In this document: positions 1 through 8,431 of the stretch, piece after piece
Position numbering within the stretch: the first letter of the stretch is position 1
Layout: each line of letters starts with the position of its first letter
Source of the DNA: Nitrospiraceae bacterium
Lineage (GTDB): Bacteria; Nitrospirota_A; Leptospirillia; Leptospirillales; Leptospirillaceae
DNA: 8,431 bases
Direction: 5' to 3'
NCBI GenBank assembly: GCA_028064945.1
Contig: JAPTWQ010000053.1
Location: 1-8,431 of the forward strand
The notes under the pieces: model-generated
Seen by the model: only the letters and a program-made list of their open reading frames with translations
Databases searched by the model: none
Told to the model about the DNA's origin: nothing
Position numbers and translations under genes: made by a program

Positions 1-541
1 TCGGCTTGGGCGTTGATGAAGGAAAATTGAGCGTCCCGGTCCGGATGATCGGCCTGCCCCGCCAGCACCTTGTCGTTGGCCTGAAGGCTGTAACCCAGCC
101 CGTGCAGAAGCTCGCCCACTGTCGTGTGGCTGATCTCGTACCCCATGCCCCTCAACTCTCGAGCCAATGTCCGCAGACTCTTCGTCGTCCAGCGGAGCGG
201 AGACATCGGATCTCCCCGCGTCTCGGGCTCCACCAGAGACTCGAGATCCTCAAGAAGCTTCGGAGACTTTTCCGTCAGAGGCTTGGGACCGGCTCCGGAT
301 CGTCGGATCCCCCCCGCTCCCGATTCCGGATCCGGAAACGCCTGTTCCTCCAACTCCTTGATCCCTCGTTGGATCACGATACGGGAGAGTCCCGTGATCT
401 CCGACAGGGCGGTCACGCCTCCATGACCCAGAACCTTGGCTTCCGTCGCCGCCCACAACCGGTGCATGCGCTCGTTCAGCGTCCAGCGGACGCTTCGTAG
501 CGCGATCGAATCTCCTGTCTTTGGCCCTCTGTCATCTTCAT
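1..541 (-). pseudogene. ISAzo13-family transposase, 5' part, frameshifted and cut by the window edge
   Basis: Read on the minus strand, an ATG at 541-539 opens a 21-codon frame (MKMTEGQRQEIRSRYEAS...) that stops at TGA 478-476. The rest of the protein continues in another frame from about 487 to the window edge, with landmarks LNERMHRLWAATEA, LGHGGVTALSEITGLSR (an HTH-like segment), SPLRWTTKSLRTLARELR and GYSLQANDKVLAG followed by HPDRDAQFSFINAQA. The LNER, GYSLQ-N-K and HPDRDAQF-IN signatures are those of ISAzo13 (Rhodopirellula-type DDE) transposases, which cut and paste their own element. In intact relatives the RYEA and LNERxRRLWAA stretches sit in one frame. The gene is therefore disrupted by an indel near 478-495, unless expression uses a frameshift. 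The catalytic DDE part lies outside the window. No strong ribosome-binding site precedes 541. Family identity is fairly sure; loss of function is inferred. Confidence 0.8.
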
Positions 542-650
542 GGTCCGATTGTATCATCGGGCGGGCGATGTGTTCAGTAATGTGAGATTGTGTTTTATGA
601 AAACTCTCAAAATCACGAAAGAGATAACTTTATTGTATTACAAGCCCTAA

Positions 651-1149: not shown

Positions 1150-1437
1150 TCAGGCAGCGCTCACATGCACATCCACATGGATTCCCACTTTAGCAAGCAT
1201 CTTCACCAGGGCATCAATGCTGAACTTCTGAATCTTCCCTTGAAGAAGGTCGTTTAAACGGGGCTGCGTGATTCCAAGCATTTTTGCCGCCTCTCTTTGG
1301 CTCAACTTCGATCTTTCGACAAACTTTTCAACTTCGATCATCAATCGGGACCGGATCATGAGATGTTCTGCCTCAGCCTCCGAAAATCCCAGATCCTTAA
1401 AAATATTCTCCGACCCCTCTTCCCATTCCGGATTCAT
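1150..1437 (-). CDS. HigA-like antitoxin, XRE-family helix-turn-helix protein
   Basis: A 95-aa protein of the XRE/HTH_37 antitoxin type that normally binds and neutralises a RelE/HigB-family toxin and represses its own operon. Residues 8-40 form the N-terminal helices (NIFKDLGFSEAEAEHLMIRS). The helix-turn-helix runs from LSQREAAKMLGITQ to RLNDLLQGK (about 45-68). The closing FSIDALVKMLAKVGIHVDV (72-90) is typical of this group. The start is set by AAGGAG at 1451-1446, eight bases upstream. The ATG overlaps the toxin stop codon by 4 nt (ATGA, 1437-1434), which indicates translational coupling in a toxin-first operon. The frame is intact. Because the toxin upstream looks broken, the antitoxin may now be a solitary DNA-binding regulator or an evolutionary leftover. 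Confidence 0.85.
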   Translation of the reverse strand: MNPEWEEGSENIFKDLGFSEAEAEHLMIRSRLMIEVEKFVERSKLSQREAAKMLGITQPRLNDLLQGKIQKFSIDALVKMLAKVGIHVDVHVSAA

Positions 1438-1761
1438 GTCCGTCTCTCCTTTAAAACTATGTTCAATCTTTCCCGAGCCAACTCAAGATCCCGCTGGGGA
1501 GTCTTTTGGGTTTTCTTCACGAACGAGTGAAGGATATACAAAGTCTCCTCGAACTGTGCGACATAGATGATCCGATATTCGTTCTCCGCATGGATGCGAA
1601 TCTCGCACACTGGGGCCAACCCCATGCAAGGGCTTCCAGTCTTTCGGATCGAACCCCTCCTGAAGTCGGTAGATCTGATGTCCGGCTTCTCTTTGAGCCA
1701 TTCTGGAGAAATGTTGCTGAAGATCCTTTTTCGCACTCCCGACCCAAATCACTCGCTTCAT
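1434..1761 (-). pseudogene. RelE/HigB-family toxin, frameshifted
   Basis: Reading from ATG 1761, the first 53 residues look like an ordinary RelE/ParE-superfamily toxin of the HigB-like phage-derived Gp49 type: MKRVIWVGSAKKDLQQ, REAGHQIYRLQEGFDP, DWKPLHGVGPSVR. The frame then goes off and stops at 1483. The expected continuation, EIRIHAENEYRIIYVAQF, then LYILHSFVKKTQKTPQRD and ELARERL, lies in another frame that ends at TGA 1436-1434. Joined, the two parts give about 109 residues, the normal family length. The junction at 1600-1605 reads GTGCGAGATTCGC, whereas relatives usually have V-R-E-I-R, which would need an extra GA. A 2-nt loss from a GAGA run explains this. Active members cleave mRNA on the ribosome. 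The C-terminal half carries the K-K-T-Q region, so the truncated product should be inactive. Confidence 0.8.
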
Positions 1762-1795: not shown

Positions 1796-1963
1796 TGGGC
1801 CAATCAAAATGTTGGTAAAGATCTTTCAGGTAAGCTCTAGCATGAAAAATCATGAGACACTCAGAATGGAAATCCTGTGTGAACAGAAAATCAGTTCTCA
1901 CAAGAAAATACCGACATCTTTGAATTGTCACGAAATGCTCTGGTATAGATCAGGTCACTCATC
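1796..1963. other. AT-rich gene-free DNA at the inner edge of the putative element
   Basis: No coding frame with a ribosome-binding site was found on either strand. The composition is more AT-rich than the chromosome to the right. Since this DNA directly abuts the tRNA fragment on the side where the tRNA 5' half should be, it is probably the terminal, attachment-proximal part of the integrated element. Confidence 0.4.
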
Positions 1964-2021
1964 GGACTCAAAATCCCTCGACCGAAAGGTCATACCGGTT
2001 CGATCCCGGTCTCCGGCCCCA
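1964..2021 (+). tRNA. 3' half of tRNA-Leu(CAA): attachment-site remnant, not a complete tRNA
   Basis: The anticodon loop CTCAAAA (1967-1973, anticodon CAA 1969-1971) is followed by the 3' strand of the anticodon stem TCCCT (1974-1978). Next come a class II variable arm (GACC 1980-1983, GAAA loop, GGTC 1988-1991) and a perfect T arm (ACCGG 1994-1998, loop TTCGATC, CCGGT 2006-2010). The acceptor 3' strand CTCCGGC (2011-2017), a discriminator base C and CCA (2019-2021) complete it. The long variable arm and CAA anticodon indicate leucine. A complete gene would need AGGGA before the loop, but ATCGGA stands there, and neither the acceptor 5' strand GCCGGAG nor a D arm occurs upstream. The non-leucine discriminator (C instead of A) also argues that it is no longer functional. 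Integrases that target tRNA genes leave exactly such a displaced 3' half at one element boundary. Confidence 0.8.
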
Positions 2022-2138
2022 GTCATTCGACGGCTGTTCCGCAACGTCCCCGAAAGGGGCAGACACTCACACGCCTGCACCCGGATGCAAGAAAACGGAT
2101 CAACTCCAGACAGGTCATTCATTACTCGCCTATAGAAC
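2022..2138. other. Short intergenic region between the tRNA fragment and the ATPase 3' end
   Basis: A small hairpin CCCC-GAAA-GGGG sits at 2048-2059. No T-rich terminator tail is visible downstream of the minus-strand ATPase gene, whose stop is at 2141-2139. If the integration model is right, this is original chromosome that lay just downstream of an intact tRNA-Leu gene. Confidence 0.4.
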
Positions 2139-4457
2139 TCAAGGTTTCAGAAAAACTCCCTTGACTCGATCGACCAGCAGGGTCGTCGTGCCAACAAGCA
2201 GAATGTCACCCAACAGGACCGAAATCGGAAGGGGCGTCAGCAGAAGATTTGTTCCTGCCAGGACAGCCACCACAAGCAGGTCCCCGACAATCGCGAGAGA
2301 CAATGCGCGGGAGGGCTTTGTCATCCAGAGCGGGCCCCGCTCCCGGATCACCAGAACATTGCCGAGTCCGGTGAGGACCAGAGTCAGAAAGGCCAGTGTC
2401 TGACAGGCGCCAGGAGAGAGGTGGAGCCAGGCTCGACCGGCATAAAAGACCGAGAGTGTCAGAGACAGCCAGAGAAAGGCGATCAGAATGGCCATGGCCA
2501 TAAGCCGACGGATGTTCCAGCGATTCGGGTGAACGGAAAAGCGGACATGGTCGCTCGCCAGGGACATGGTCACGAAGTCGTTCGTAAAAATGAGAAGCAG
2601 GATCATGCGGGAGTCGACAACATAGGTGTGGAACAGGAGAAGCCCCCCCGTCAGAAAGAGGGCCACTTCGAGGGTCTTCACGATTTTGTTCAAGACATAG
2701 TTCTGGATCCTGTGGTACACCTTGCGGCCTTCCTCCACCGCCTCTGCCAGCCCTCCAAGCCCGGGAGCCACAAGAATCATGCTCGCCGCCGCCCGGGCAA
2801 TGTCGCTGGACTTCGCCACGGCAATCCCCACCTCGGCCTGCTTCAGAGCCGGAGCGTCGTTGACGCCATCTCCGGTCATTCCGACAATTCGTCCCTTCTT
2901 CTGCAAGATCCCCACAAGATGAAACTTGTCTTCCGGCATGACGCCGGCAAAAACCTCACAATCCATGACATGACTGTCTGCGATCGCCGTCGCCGAACAG
3001 GGCGGCAGGGCAAGATCCAGACTCTTGGCCACGGCAACGGCCGCTTCCGACGTGTCACCGGTGACCAGCCGAATCCGGATCCCAAGATTCCTAAGGGATT
3101 GGATGACCGTGGAGGTCTCCTTTCGCAGGGGATCCGAAAAGGAGAGGAGTCCGAGCATCATAAGCGGTGCCTCGGGCAAAAGATCTCCCTTGGCCACGGC
3201 AATCGTTCGCTGACCGGTCAGATCGAGCCCCAGCAGATCCTTTTCCGGAACTCCCGCCTCCGCCATAATTCCCGGAGATCCCTTGACGATCCGGAAGCTT
3301 GCCCCCCGATCCGACTCAACGACAGCTTCTGTCCGCTTGGTAGCCGGATCGAAGGGAACCAGGGAGACTCTTCGCTCCTGTCCTGATGGCTTGACCCCTC
3401 TCTTTTTCGCCTCATCAAAAATGGCCATCTCAAGAGGATCTTGTGCCGAGATATCTGACGCCGCCATGGCGGCCTCCAGAAGGTCCTTTTCAGACACTCC
3501 GGAAGAGGGGCGGAGCTCCTGGACGGTCAGCCGGTTTTCCGTCAGCGTCCCCGTCTTGTCGCACAGGAGGTCTTCCATGACCGCCGCATCCGAAATGGCG
3601 GAGAGACGTGTCACAAGGACACCCTTTCGGGAAAGAACTTCAGCAGAGAGGGAATTGGCCAGGGTAAAAGTCGGGGGAAGAGCGACAGGAATTGCCGACA
3701 CAAGAAGGATGAGGACAAACGGGATGAGACTGGCCGGAGATCTCCCCGCATGAAGGGCGAGAGGAAAGAGAAGGATGGCCAGGAGAAGGTCAAAGGCAAG
3801 AAGAGAGCGAACGATCTGGAGAACGACCTCCTCGAAATGGCTTCGGGTCGTGGCATCGTGCACGAGCTTGGCGGTCTTCCCAAACGCACACCGGGACCCC
3901 GTTCGGCTCACAAGACCGCTCCCCTCTCCCCTGCGAACGAGCGAGCCAGACCAGAGAACGTCTTTCGGACTCTTCTCTACAGGGAGGGCCTCCCCCGTCA
4001 GGGAGGACTGGTCGACCAAGAGATTGCCGGATAAAAGATCCATGTCGGCAGGGACAAAGTCCCCGGTCCTGATGTGGACAAGATCTCCCGGGACCAGACC
4101 TTCCGAATTTATTTCCTGCCAGATGCCGTCGCGCTGGACCCGAGCCCGGATCTCAAGGCGGCTCCTGAGGAGCGCCAGAGCCTCCTGCCCCTTCTGCTCC
4201 TTGACGAATGCCAGAAGAGCATTCAGGAAGAGCAAAACGATGATGATCCCCGCCTCAAGCCTTTTTCCAAGAGCATATTCCAGGACGAAAGCGGTTTCCA
4301 GCATCCAGGGGATCGGCCCCCAGAACTTGAGTAAAAGGAGACGGATTTGAGAGGGTTCGGACAGAGAGACGGCATTGGGACCCACGCTCCGAAGGAGCTC
4401 GGCCGCCTCTTCCGTGGTCAGTCCGGAGAACGTGTCTTCAGAGACAGGAAGGGACAT
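2139..4457 (-). CDS. P-type ATPase, P3A plasma-membrane proton-pump type
   Basis: A 772-aa integral membrane cation pump driven by ATP. Actuator loop: SSLTGEALPVEK (151-162, TGEA instead of TGES). M4: IPVALPP (256-262). Phosphorylation site: DKTGTLT, with catalytic Asp300. Nucleotide domain: KGSP (392-395). P domain: TGD (466-468) and the hinge TGDGVNDAPALKQ (528-540). About ten membrane spans are visible: M1-M2 within 50-86, M3-M4 within 212-263, and six after 588. The FWGPIPWMLE opening and M6 FTNDFVTMSLASD (Asp627, aligning with the proton-binding Asp684 of plant AHA2) place it in P3A, whose members export H+. Asn79 in M2 matches AHA2 Asn106. The M5 arginine of plant and fungal pumps (AHA2 Arg655) aligns with Glu597, so ion specificity is less certain. 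There is no C-terminal autoinhibitory domain. It starts 36 nt after the MarR-like gene, probably in one operon. Confidence 0.93.
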   Translation of the reverse strand: MSLPVSEDTFSGLTTEEAAELLRSVGPNAVSLSEPSQIRLLLLKFWGPIPWMLETAFVLEYALGKRLEAGIIIVLLFLNALLAFVKEQKGQEALALLRSRLEIRARVQRDGIWQEINSEGLVPGDLVHIRTGDFVPADMDLLSGNLLVDQSSLTGEALPVEKSPKDVLWSGSLVRRGEGSGLVSRTGSRCAFGKTAKLVHDATTRSHFEEVVLQIVRSLLAFDLLLAILLFPLALHAGRSPASLIPFVLILLVSAIPVALPPTFTLANSLSAEVLSRKGVLVTRLSAISDAAVMEDLLCDKTGTLTENRLTVQELRPSSGVSEKDLLEAAMAASDISAQDPLEMAIFDEAKKRGVKPSGQERRVSLVPFDPATKRTEAVVESDRGASFRIVKGSPGIMAEAGVPEKDLLGLDLTGQRTIAVAKGDLLPEAPLMMLGLLSFSDPLRKETSTVIQSLRNLGIRIRLVTGDTSEAAVAVAKSLDLALPPCSATAIADSHVMDCEVFAGVMPEDKFHLVGILQKKGRIVGMTGDGVNDAPALKQAEVGIAVAKSSDIARAAASMILVAPGLGGLAEAVEEGRKVYHRIQNYVLNKIVKTLEVALFLTGGLLLFHTYVVDSRMILLLIFTNDFVTMSLASDHVRFSVHPNRWNIRRLMAMAILIAFLWLSLTLSVFYAGRAWLHLSPGACQTLAFLTLVLTGLGNVLVIRERGPLWMTKPSRALSLAIVGDLLVVAVLAGTNLLLTPLPISVLLGDILLVGTTTLLVDRVKGVFLKP

Positions 4458-4493: not shown

Positions 4494-4928
4494 CTACTCA
4501 TTGGCAATGATTGGCTCCCATGGGTTTCCTGCATCGATGGTCCGGGATTTTTCATCGAGGATCTCAGGCTCGATCATCACGGTCCTCATTCTGAGAAGAA
4601 AGTCGAGAAACTGTTCCTGCTCCTTCTCGGAAAAGACATCGAAGATGCGTGAGACCCGATCCTTAAAGGCCGAACAGTTTTCGGAACAAAACTCATCCTC
4701 CGCCTTCGGGGTCGGCTCGACAATGCTGGCCCGACGGTCTGTGGGAGAGTGGTCCCGCAGACTGCGCATCATCATCGGCCCGCATTCATAGAGAATGCCC
4801 ATCAGGTGGGTCGCTTCGGGGTAAATCCGGATCGCTCCATAGAGCCTCCTCCCATCGGACAAAAGCCGGTCCCACATCCAGAAAAGAGTGAGCAGCCAGA
4901 AGCGTAGAGGGGTGTCTGCCTCTTTCAT
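4494..4928 (-). CDS. MarR-derived protein lacking the recognition part of its winged helix
   Basis: A 144-aa protein. The N-terminal helices and following segment (FWLLTLFWMWDRLL, then IYPEATHLMGILYECGP) are followed by SPTDRRASIVEPTPKAEDEF (61-80), which matches the MarR wing signature D-x-R-R-x-x-x-L-T-x-x-G. A dimerisation-type C-terminal helix follows (RIFDVFSEKEQEQFLDFLLRMRTVM). In MarR proteins about 40 residues separate the segment after helix 2 from DRR and hold the two DNA-reading helices. Here only about 16 remain, so some 25 residues seem to be missing in frame. It could still dimerise but probably not bind DNA normally. Cysteines at 49, 81 and 85 (C-x3-C) are possible redox or metal ligands. 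Its position just upstream of the P3A ATPase suggests it was that operon's regulator. I see no good Shine-Dalgarno sequence, so the start is uncertain. MarR ancestry is likely, current function unknown. Confidence 0.6.
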   Translation of the reverse strand: MKEADTPLRFWLLTLFWMWDRLLSDGRRLYGAIRIYPEATHLMGILYECGPMMMRSLRDHSPTDRRASIVEPTPKAEDEFCSENCSAFKDRVSRIFDVFSEKEQEQFLDFLLRMRTVMIEPEILDEKSRTIDAGNPWEPIIANE

Positions 4929-6547: not shown

Positions 6548-6877
6548 ATGAAAAAGCTCACCATTTCACTGGGAATTCTTTCCATTCTCGCTCTCTCCTC
6601 CACCTCTTATGCCACCAGCGTCAAGGATCTGATCAATTCCAATGGCTGTTTCGCCTGCCACTCCGTCGACACAAAAATGGTCGGTCCCTCCTTTAAGATG
6701 GTGGCCGACAAGTACCGGGGACAGAAAGGTGCCGACGAAATGCTGGCGAAAAAGATCATCGCCGGCGGAAACGGACACTGGAATGATGTCACCGGAGGCG
6801 TGATGATGCCACCGCACCCTGGAATGTCCATGGACCAGGCCGAAGCGGTTGCCAAGTGGGTCCTTGCCACGAAGTAA
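6548..6877 (+). CDS. Periplasmic monohaem class I cytochrome c (c-551/c-552-like)
   Basis: A 109-aa precursor. An N-terminal signal peptide (MKK, hydrophobic core, cleavage after STSYA at residue 22) sends it to the periplasm and leaves about 87 residues. The haem site C-F-A-C-H is at 34-38 (NGCFACHSVD). GPSF at 46-49 is the usual proline loop. The Met axial ligand is most likely Met87 in the G-V-M-M-P-P segment, and the C-terminal helix is QAEAVAKWVLATK. This is the compact c-551 fold that carries single electrons between a membrane or outer-membrane donor and a terminal oxidase or reductase. In iron oxidisers such proteins link Fe(II) oxidation to the oxidase, but no partner genes are in view. 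No good Shine-Dalgarno sequence lies at normal distance (GAGGAGA is 17 nt upstream). It has its own promoter and leader. Confidence 0.92.
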   Translation: MKKLTISLGILSILALSSTSYATSVKDLINSNGCFACHSVDTKMVGPSFKMVADKYRGQKGADEMLAKKIIAGGNGHWNDVTGGVMMPPHPGMSMDQAEAVAKWVLATK

Positions 6878-6902
6878 ATCATTGTTTCCCATCAGACGGG
6901 GG

Positions 6903-6940
6903 GCAGGAGATGACCTTTCAGGAGGTCGTTCCTGCTTCTC
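6903..6940 (+). terminator. Probable terminator after the cytochrome gene
   Basis: GCAGGA (6903-6908) pairs with TCCTGC (6930-6935), and inside them GACCT (6912-6916) pairs with AGGTC (6923-6927). The stem is followed by a pyrimidine-rich TTCTCTTGTCTT instead of a pure T run. It should separate the cytochrome transcript from the next gene. Confidence 0.5.
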
Positions 6941-6969
6941 TTGTCTTCGCACTGTCCCTCCACTAGAAT
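6941..6969 (+). promoter_or_regulatory. Candidate promoter of the Spy-like gene
   Basis: TTGTCT (6941-6946) and TAGAAT (6964-6969) with 17-nt spacing match sigma-70 boxes at 4/6 and 5/6 positions. They start just after the preceding terminator and predict a leader of about 60 nt. An alternative envelope-stress sigma factor or response regulator site cannot be excluded. Confidence 0.4.
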
Positions 6970-7034
6970 CAAATCGACCACACCGATCGTTCTTATTCCT
7001 GAAAAATTCACATTATCCTTGGAAGGAGCGTCTC

Positions 7035-7526
7035 ATGATAAAAAAGGCTCTCATTCTCCCTCTTTTTTCTGCTCTCCTCATATCCGCCACACCTGTCATC
7101 TCTCATGCCGACAATCTCCCCCCGCTCACGGGGGCAAAAACTGCAAAGATGTTCAACGACTTTCGCTCCCAGGCCGGAAAGGACTTTCTCCTCCCCCAAG
7201 TCTTCAAGAACCATCCGGGAGTGACCTTTATCCTCTCTCATGCCAAGGAGCTCGGCCTGACGGGAACACAGATCAAGCACCTTAAGGTCATTCGTCGCCA
7301 TATGCTGGCCCGCTCGCTTGCGCAGTTCAAGAAGATCAATGCCCAGCGCGCCGCCTATCTCGCCATGGCTGAAAAAAGCCAGGCAGACCCCAAGAAGCTC
7401 CACAAGGATCTTCACAACATTGCCTGGCTCATGGCTCAGGCAACCGCGGATCATCTGACGGGCCATCTCAATGCCGCCAAGGTTCTTACGGCAGCCCAGC
7501 TCAAAAAGCTTTCCTCACTCAAATAG
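7035..7526 (+). CDS. Spy/CpxP-like periplasmic LTxxQ protein
   Basis: A 163-aa precursor. The signal peptide MIKKALILPLFSALLISATP runs to SHA, with cleavage after residue 25. The mature part is mostly helical, basic and lysine-rich, with two LTxxQ motifs, LTGTQ at 75-79 (after LGL) and LTAAQ at 151-155. This pair of motifs defines the Spy/CpxP group of envelope proteins, which act as ATP-independent chaperones or as sensors of envelope and metal stress. The sequence is diverged and contains no cysteines. His60, His69, His82 and His89 are scattered without a clear metal site. AAGGAG (7023-7028), six bases before the ATG, fixes the start. It is followed directly by a strong terminator, so it is a single-gene unit. 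Its place beside a periplasmic cytochrome suggests, but does not prove, a role in periplasmic protein upkeep. Confidence 0.75.
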   Translation: MIKKALILPLFSALLISATPVISHADNLPPLTGAKTAKMFNDFRSQAGKDFLLPQVFKNHPGVTFILSHAKELGLTGTQIKHLKVIRRHMLARSLAQFKKINAQRAAYLAMAEKSQADPKKLHKDLHNIAWLMAQATADHLTGHLNAAKVLTAAQLKKLSSLK

Positions 7527-7534
7527 CCCACCCC

Positions 7535-7571
7535 TGCAGGACGGGACATCCCCGTCCTGCACTCTTCCTTT
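7535..7571 (+). terminator. Strong stem-loop terminator after the Spy-like gene
   Basis: A perfect 11-bp stem TGCAGGACGGG (7535-7545) with CCCGTCCTGCA (7551-7561), loop ACATC, starts eight bases after the stop codon. A pyrimidine-rich tail CTCTTCCTTT follows. The tail is not pure T, but the stem is the most stable in the window. Confidence 0.7.
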
Positions 7572-8060
7572 CCCGATCCAGCCCCCTCTTCATGAGGATC
7601 TGCCCCGGCCACGCGTTCGTCTCCCCTCATGATCAACCCCCTTAAGTCATTGTTTTCTCGTGATAGGAACGGCTGCTTCACTCCATTTTCCCTGAAGGAT
7701 CGCCGCCGATCTTCTCCATGACCCAAATTCTTCTTGACTTTCCGGACTGCACGAAGGATAATCAACGTTGATATACGTCGGGCATCGTGGATTGTGTATC
7801 GCTGCGCAAGAATGCGCCGAATTCGCCGGATTCAAGGTTTTGACCCTGCCAGATGGACTCGTGTCCGACCGCTTGTTCAACCCCCGCTGATCATTCCCGG
7901 CACTCTGTTGGAGAAAACAGTTCCTTCGGCGTCCGACCCCCCCGTTTTTTGTCTCGGGCGGAGGCGCCGCGGTGCCGGGAACGCTCCACCATGGAGCATG
8001 AATTCCTCCCCGGGATCCCCGCCGTCACACTCACGTTCGTCTATTCTGCTAGGAGTAACA
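7572..8060 (+). other. Long non-coding leader region before the DEAD-box helicase
   Basis: No supported protein gene. An 8-bp inverted repeat (TCATGAGG 7590-7597, CCTCATGA 7625-7632) follows the terminator. From the promoter at 7734-7762 to the helicase ATG at 8061 there are about 290 nt of leader. The leader contains hairpins GCGCA/TGCGC (7804-7808, 7813-7817) and GCTCC/GGAGC (around 7982-7996) and a run of six T after CCCCCCCG near 7943-7956. Long structured leaders are known for cold-shock DEAD-box helicase mRNAs. Confidence 0.45.
7734..7762 (+). promoter_or_regulatory. Probable promoter of the DEAD-box helicase gene
   Basis: TTGACT (7734-7739) and GATAAT (7757-7762) have the ideal 17-nt spacing and match sigma-70 boxes at 5/6 positions each. 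Transcription should start near 7769, about 290 nt before the start codon. Confidence 0.55.
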
Positions 8061-8431
8061 ATGTCATTTGAGACCCTTGGCCTCAATCCGGATCTTCTGC
8101 GCGCTCTTTCCGACCTCAAACACGAATCCCCCACACCCATCCAGAAACAGACCATTCCTCCGATCATCGAGGGACGGGATGTACTCGGAGTGGCCCAGAC
8201 CGGTTCCGGCAAGACCGGAGGATTCCTTCTCCCCTCCCTCCACCGGAACAAACGCGCCCAGGGAAATCGTACACGCCATCAGATCCTCGTCCTCTCCCCG
8301 ACCCGGGAGCTGGCAGGGCAGATCGAGCGCTCCGCTCGGGAATACGGAAAATATCTCCGGAGCCGCACCGTTCTTCTCGTCGGAGGAACGGACATGCGAC
8401 GCCAGATCGATTTTCTTCGCAGACCCTGGGA
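8061..8431 (+). CDS. DEAD-box RNA helicase, RhlE-like, N-terminal part (cut by window end)
   Basis: The first 123 residues of a superfamily 2 ATP-dependent RNA helicase that unwinds short RNA duplexes in mRNA decay, ribosome assembly or cold adaptation. The Q motif is complete: Phe3 upstream, then PTPIQ with Gln28. Motif I (Walker A) is AQTGSGKT at 45-52, motif Ia is PTREL at 80-84, and the GG pair is at 108-109 (VGGTD). The DEAD box itself and domain 2 are beyond the window. The start is fixed by AGGAG (8051-8055), five bases upstream, and by MSFETLGL, the usual beginning of RhlE-type proteins. The short N-terminus before the Q motif fits RhlE. It has its own promoter and an unusually long leader. 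Subfamily assignment is tentative; the helicase call is secure. Confidence 0.93.
   Translation, partial: MSFETLGLNPDLLRALSDLKHESPTPIQKQTIPPIIEGRDVLGVAQTGSGKTGGFLLPSLHRNKRAQGNRTRHQILVLSPTRELAGQIERSAREYGKYLRSRTVLLVGGTDMRRQIDFLRRPW

Follow-up and report, generated by a model that had tools for sequence, protein, structure and literature searches.

The segment at positions 1964-2021 of the window, the whole 8,431-nucleotide stretch of DNA that was analysed, is with a probability of roughly 87% the attR site, i.e., the outer boundary on the right, of a genomic island that targets tRNA genes and is integrated at the anticodon loop of tRNA-Leu(UAA). Insertion into tRNA genes is a common route for mobile DNA into bacterial genomes. 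By this mechanism, a tyrosine recombinase would cross the attP of the element, which would carry its own 3' half of tRNA-Leu, with the chromosomal tRNA-Leu(UAA); at the left end, the chromosomal 5' half and the 3' half of the element would together restore the tRNA, and the original 3' half would be pushed to the right end and be free to decay there. The rebuilt tRNA-Leu(UAA) of the window and the integrase gene or its remains would lie further left. In relatives, a chimeric tRNA together with a displaced half of the original type (G001) and integrase genes beside intact tRNA-Leu (G017, G018 and, for the CAA isoacceptor, G005) were seen. The integration mechanism is already textbook, and the case is an ordinary one with good support, by which one end of a mobile island is fixed in what is probably a relative of the iron-oxidising acidophiles. 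The features of the window are collected in Table 1.

Table 1. Features of the 8,431-nucleotide window, with their proposed roles and the main observation on each.
Feature	Positions	Strand	Observation
Transposase (DDE_Tnp_ISAZ013)	3..557	-	PF07592, E 3.4e-28; runs off the window
Antitoxin of a toxin-antitoxin pair (HTH_37), putative island cargo	1150..1437	-	PF13744, E 3.3e-25
Toxin gene (Gp49/PF05973), broken	1434..1761	-	Reading interrupted: 1483-1761 in one frame, 1434-1736 in another
Junction arm on the element side, probably attP-derived, with the TC end just before GGAC	1862..1963	+	Similar DNA at the G003 and G005 halves
Displaced 3' part of tRNA-Leu(UAA), very probable attR (right-end junction)	1964..2021	+	56/58 against the UAA consensus
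Right flank, probably chromosome	2022..2138	.	Without AGCCA after CCA; the ATPase gene also follows the G001 half
P-type ATPase gene, probable chromosome side	2139..4457	-	PF00122, PF00702; 94% amino-acid homolog beside the G001 half
144-aa ORF, probable chromosome side	4494..4928	-	G016 homolog lies after the antitoxin and the intact tRNA-Leu(UAA)
Cytochrome c gene	6548-6877	+	PF00034; homologs downstream of intact tRNA-Leu(UAA) in G009, G019
163-aa ORF	7035-7526	+	Homologs after intact tRNA-Leu(UAA) in G009, G019
Start of a helicase-like gene	within 6548..8431	+	Homologs after intact tRNA-Leu(UAA) in G009, G019

The segment present at 1964-2021 runs from the anticodon stem to the CCA end of a class II tRNA and keeps the anticodon loop (with C34), the variable arm, the T arm, the acceptor 3' strand and CCA; the initial annotation, made from the DNA letters, had recognised it as the 3' half of such a tRNA, and this half is real. 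Through CCA, it agrees at 56 of 58 bases with the consensus of the intact tRNA-Leu(UAA) genes of relatives, versus 42 of 58 with the tRNA-Leu(CAA) of G005, and because of these values it is assigned to tRNA-Leu(UAA), from which, judged by its sequence, it derives; the CAA isoacceptor, which had been named at first, was wrong and is rejected. The two departures from the UAA consensus are the anticodon base 34 (T to C), the sole CAA-like feature of the window half, and the discriminator, base 73, where A has become C (A73C). The half had also been described as preserved base for base, which is nearly right, although these two bases are changed, and as bearing a non-leucine discriminator owing to drift after displacement, with which A73C agrees. 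The likeness of the window half to tRNA is far beyond chance; the stretch 1940-2060 matches 17 of the 21 family genomes at E <= 0.01 (best 1.2e-23), and the strong matches (E <= 3e-17) are the 3' parts of tRNA-Leu(UAA) genes, either intact or displaced. Neither plasmids matching the window at near identity nor an exact 30-base stretch of the half in viral contigs were found.

In the window half, the variable arm pairs at 4/4 positions and the T stem at 5/5, and the anticodon stem only at 3/5, because the outer part of its 5' strand is foreign. The window yielded no complete tRNA in ARAGORN and nothing in Rfam up to E = 1, as is expected of half a gene. Group I introns are classic in tRNA-Leu(UAA), and the half might be read as a 3' exon, the tRNA-Leu being split or intron-bearing at the anticodon loop or functional in some other way, with which the break at the anticodon and the remaining pairing of the variable arm and the T stem would accord; however, besides the missing Rfam match, there is a complete tRNA-Leu(UAA) elsewhere in G001, the G001 and G005 halves keep only three of the five T-stem pairs, the window half carries A73C and, taken alone, folds no better than shuffles (z 0.31), so that this reading is hardly credible at all. 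The group I intron itself was rejected on the lack of both an Rfam match up to that threshold and a complete tRNA, an intron crossing the left edge being only partly visible in the window.

The displacement by integration was tested in 21 genomes, i.e., the family of the closest relative of the window, the metagenome-assembled Nitrospirae bacterium UBA4572 (G001), which shares 96% of the amino acids over the C-terminal 216 residues of the P-type ATPase. A public 88% homolog bears the name 'Leptospirillia bacterium', and the 21 genomes are taken to be probable Leptospirillaceae. Intact tRNA-Leu(UAA), anticodon taa in ARAGORN, was found in 14 of them (G001, G002, G005, G007, G008, G009, G011, G012, G013, G014, G016, G017, G018, G019), and none in the assemblies of G003 and G021, where presumably assembly gaps account for the missing gene. 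Besides the window, there are five displaced UAA halves in 4 of the 21 genomes (G001, G003, G005, and two in G021) and two displaced CAA halves (G005, G017), the CAA matches beginning right at a contig end (G018:C21, G010:C47) being excluded from the count. The T stem is complete (5/5) in all 14 intact tRNA-Leu(UAA) genes and in four of the six UAA halves (window, G003, both of G021), and is reduced to 3/5 in the other two (G001, G005); some displaced copies decay, and the decay is not evident in each. The tRNA-Leu(UAA) gene is a recurrent integration site in the family.

In all seven halves with left DNA, the tRNA homology begins in the anticodon stem, as with a crossover at the anticodon, and TC stands just before GRAC, the place which is taken by AAG in 14/14 intact tRNA-Leu(UAA) genes. 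This breakpoint, repeated in two isoacceptor genes, together with left arms unlike that of the window in four of six cases and with the chimeric tRNAs of G001 and G018 described below, argues against a tRNA pseudogene that arose with no site-specific recombinase, through duplication, deletion or an insertion-sequence event of the ordinary kind. Such an origin, for which the insertion-sequence transposase 1.4 kb to the left and the lack of an integrase among the genes found in the window (which includes only 1.96 kb of the element) might be adduced, is thereby very improbable.

Site-specific integration at the anticodon, with the element lying to the left of the half, had been proposed from the window, and both parts of the proposal are backed by the chimeric tRNA of G001, the pair of apparently empty and occupied sites in G013 and G021, and the order of the features in G005. 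The displaced half of G001 adjoins the same ATPase gene as that of the window (contig C55) and is located at the contig end; the contig starts one base before the half, and this base is C, where the intact gene has G. The distinction of a displaced half from a cut-off tRNA rests here on the C base, on the loss of two T-stem pairs and on the presence of the intact gene at another place. This intact tRNA-Leu(UAA) of G001 (contig C49, i.e., a contig different from that of the half) is chimeric in comparison with G014, showing 0/45 differences in bases 1-45 and 12/42 in bases 46-87, within a region in which both genomes are 93% identical over 12 kb including the tRNA and 95.7% identical over the 300 bases before it; this is what an element-borne 3' half predicts. 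The foreign 3' part of the tRNA in G018 equals that of G001 base for base, whereas G018 is otherwise 71-75% identical to G014 there, which points to horizontal spread of the element-borne half. In the chimeric tRNAs of G001 and G018, the rebuilding of a tRNA gene with a 3' half brought by the element is clearly recorded. The tRNA genes of G001 and G018 with the common foreign tRNA-Leu(UAA) 3' half lie at L094 36-122 and L095 1313-1399.

The comparison of the intact tRNA of G013 with one of the G021 halves (C303) has shown right sides with 95.5% identity over 3,399 bases, counted from base three of the half, and left sides without a match over the only ~0.2 kb present to the left of the G021 half, so that G013 looks like the empty site and G021 like the occupied one. 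Such a comparison of empty and occupied sites was found for this pair, and none of the 21 genomes provided an empty-site relative for the window's own flank. In G005, assembled as a single 2.56-Mb contig, the intact tRNA (2020211-2020297), a toxin-antitoxin homolog (89%) and the half (2023658-2023715) follow each other in this order and in one orientation within 3.5 kb; an intact tRNA of the same kind is thus found upstream of the half, in the same orientation and on the same replicon. Between this tRNA-Leu(UAA) and the half, there was no PF00589 match at E <= 1e-5, and three ORFs located there had no Pfam match. The same genome contains a 25.7-kb island (L065/L066, C1:341097-366921) at tRNA-Leu(CAA), with a displaced CAA half at its far end, a PF00589 match (integrase) 0.63 kb from the tRNA, and a cargo of ArdC, a TrwB/TraG-type coupling protein (conjugation), type I restriction-modification and a SIR2-like protein.

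Matches to PF00589 are located 0.56-0.63 kb beyond the intact tRNA in G017 (UAA), G018 (UAA, the chimeric gene) and G005 (CAA). None was found close by at 11 of the 13 intact tRNA-Leu(UAA) loci with downstream DNA, three of these 11 (G001, G007, G012) being on contigs that end within 0.4 kb; the rest of them must be decayed or using something else.

To the left of the half, the arm 1862-1963, aligned without the half, scored 91 against G003 and 51 against G005, the best of 200 shuffles each being 38 and 35, and for the other four halves (the G021 pair and the CAA halves of G005 and G017) the arm scores stayed within those of their shuffles. Because the arm scores exceed the shuffles in the former and not in the latter, the ends in the window, in G003 and in G005 belong to one element type, and those at the other halves to other types. 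With G003, the window is 84% identical over 1143-2021, through the half; with G005, the identity is 78% over 1910-2021, the half included, and in the 54-base arm alone 39 bases agree.

The DNA to the left of 1963, comprising the toxin-antitoxin pair and perhaps the transposase, would be island cargo. The toxin of the window is broken while the antitoxin reads through, and uninterrupted toxin homologs of 109 aa are found in G005 and G009. The pair lies downstream of tRNA-Leu(UAA) in G005 and G009, its homologs adjoin the half in G003, and the antitoxin occurs alone in G016, ~50 bases beyond the intact tRNA, the orientation being the same in all four. No half was found further right of the G016 antitoxin, for which decay is the best explanation. 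In G018 (C6), there is a partial toxin-antitoxin homolog at the contig end, with neither a half nor a tRNA-Leu in 7.5 kb, and the pair may not be confined to the tRNA-Leu site. No half was found at >= 33/58 in the stretches of G018:C6 or G021:C221, and candidates for a further half to the right of the toxin-antitoxin pair (G009, G016) or of the tRNA (G019) were rejected as chance, since 14, 6 and 32 of 60 shuffles, respectively, scored at least as high. A weak 70% stretch was also observed in G008:C98. Among the four genomes in which island cargo was examined (G005, G009, G017, G019), the intact tRNA-Leu(UAA) is followed by a type I methyltransferase in G017, a RhuM-family protein and a type III-like methyltransferase in G009, and a type II-like methyltransferase in G019. 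The tRNA-Leu(UAA) islands of the family carry restriction-modification-type and toxin-antitoxin cargo.

The right side of the window is most likely chromosome, as its gene content suggests. The name of its 3'-most gene, presumably a helicase, is taken from its motifs, and on the G003 contig that carries the half, a helicase homolog lies ~8 kb away from it, differently arranged. To the right of the G003 half, there is a 1.9-kb region that is also located (73%) to the right of the intact tRNA of G008. The initial annotation had expected an intact tRNA-Leu beside the P3A ATPase gene in relatives free of the element; this expectation was not borne out, since no intact tRNA-Leu stands beside the ATPase in any of the 21 genomes and the sole close homolog (94%, G001) adjoins a half too, the next ones being at 61% or less. 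The ATPase was accordingly rejected as an empty-site marker, and because the half of G001 is the one place, among the 21 genomes, where its close homolog is found, the gene may have been gained locally or belong to the cargo of an older island.

The downstream motif AGCCA was found within 26 bases after CCA in 9 of the 13 intact tRNA-Leu(UAA) genes with downstream DNA, seven times at +8/+9, and after CCA in 4/7 CAA genes, compared with a background of 1.9% of 40,000 random 26-mers, the comparison being post hoc, as the motif was picked after seeing the sequences, and made in related genomes. It follows three of the eight displaced halves, namely those of G003, G005 (UAA) and G021 (C305), and is absent after those of the window, G001 and G021 (C303) and both CAA halves. 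The former three resemble inner junctions within tandem arrays. In G005, ~115 bases beyond CCA (L052 8299-8413 and 11717-11832) are common to the intact tRNA and the half, as if two islands that end alike stood in tandem. The window half might likewise be the inner junction of a tandem array, with islands on both sides and the ATPase as cargo of the older one, and the occurrence of AGCCA after displaced halves as after many intact tRNAs, the common stretch of G005 and the restriction of the close ATPase homolog to G001 among the 21 genomes would fit it. However, the halves of the window, G001 and G021 (C303) are without the motif, the right side of the latter matches the sequence after the intact G013 tRNA, and the 144-aa ORF, the cytochrome c and the helicase-like genes follow the intact tRNA in other genomes, making an inner junction in the window improbable. 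Because AGCCA is absent after its CCA, the window half looks like the outermost end of an island.

The C34 of the window may come either from a CAA-type attP or from a mutation. It is conceivable, although rather doubtful, that a single island family uses both the UAA and the CAA tRNA-Leu, having in common the AGCCA signature 8-9 bases beyond the tRNA and the TCGRAC arm end, and that the toxin-antitoxin cassette persists at the UAA site through successive islands. In that case, the window and the C305 half of G021 would owe their C34 to a CAA-type attP inserted in a UAA gene.

The regenerated tRNA and the displaced fragment are the marks of island ends in the Islander collection, in which 2083 of 3919 islands have anticodon-centred sites and 3760 of 3919 have a 3' fragment, the fragment being oriented like the tRNA and tandem arrays being known (PMC4383910). 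In distinction from these islands, the window shows the right end only, and the integrase and the rebuilt tRNA are known from relatives only. The ICEMh1/ICEPmu1-like ICEs of Pasteurellaceae are inserted at the anticodon loop of tRNA-Leu, with a direct repeat GATTCAAAATC that equals the anticodon loop, and their insertion results in one functional and one partial tRNA (PMC6861422). The target is tRNA-Leu in both cases; however, these ICEs use the tRNA-Leu for UUG and the window tRNA-Leu(UAA), the host phyla are unrelated, and no conjugation or recombinase genes were seen in the 1.96 kb of the element in the window. In the L. ferriphilum pan-genome, islands with integrases were described, which in the passages available of that paper are not placed at tRNA-Leu (PMC5880901). 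A description of tRNA-Leu islands in Leptospirillum was not found in the literature as represented by titles and the starts of abstracts, which is no proof of absence.

The transposase at the left edge may be part of the island or inserted later. The stretch 541-648 beside its gene is 90% identical to G008:C39:542-649 and ends about where the stretch 644-864 starts, and the insertion sequence may have interrupted the latter. The slight tRNA-like look of 644-864 was considered for a second tRNA remnant and rejected, as ARAGORN gave no tRNA at the six loci matching 541-1150, except a tRNA-Cys ~0.8 kb off (L083); its G008 copy, folded as RNA, did not surpass shuffles (z 0.11). This non-coding stretch of ~220 bases resembles G008 C1 (89%, 194 bases), shorter pieces in C70/C78 and G007 C76 (78%, 221 bases), and the G008:C1 copy is located ~0.4 kb from a PF00589 match.
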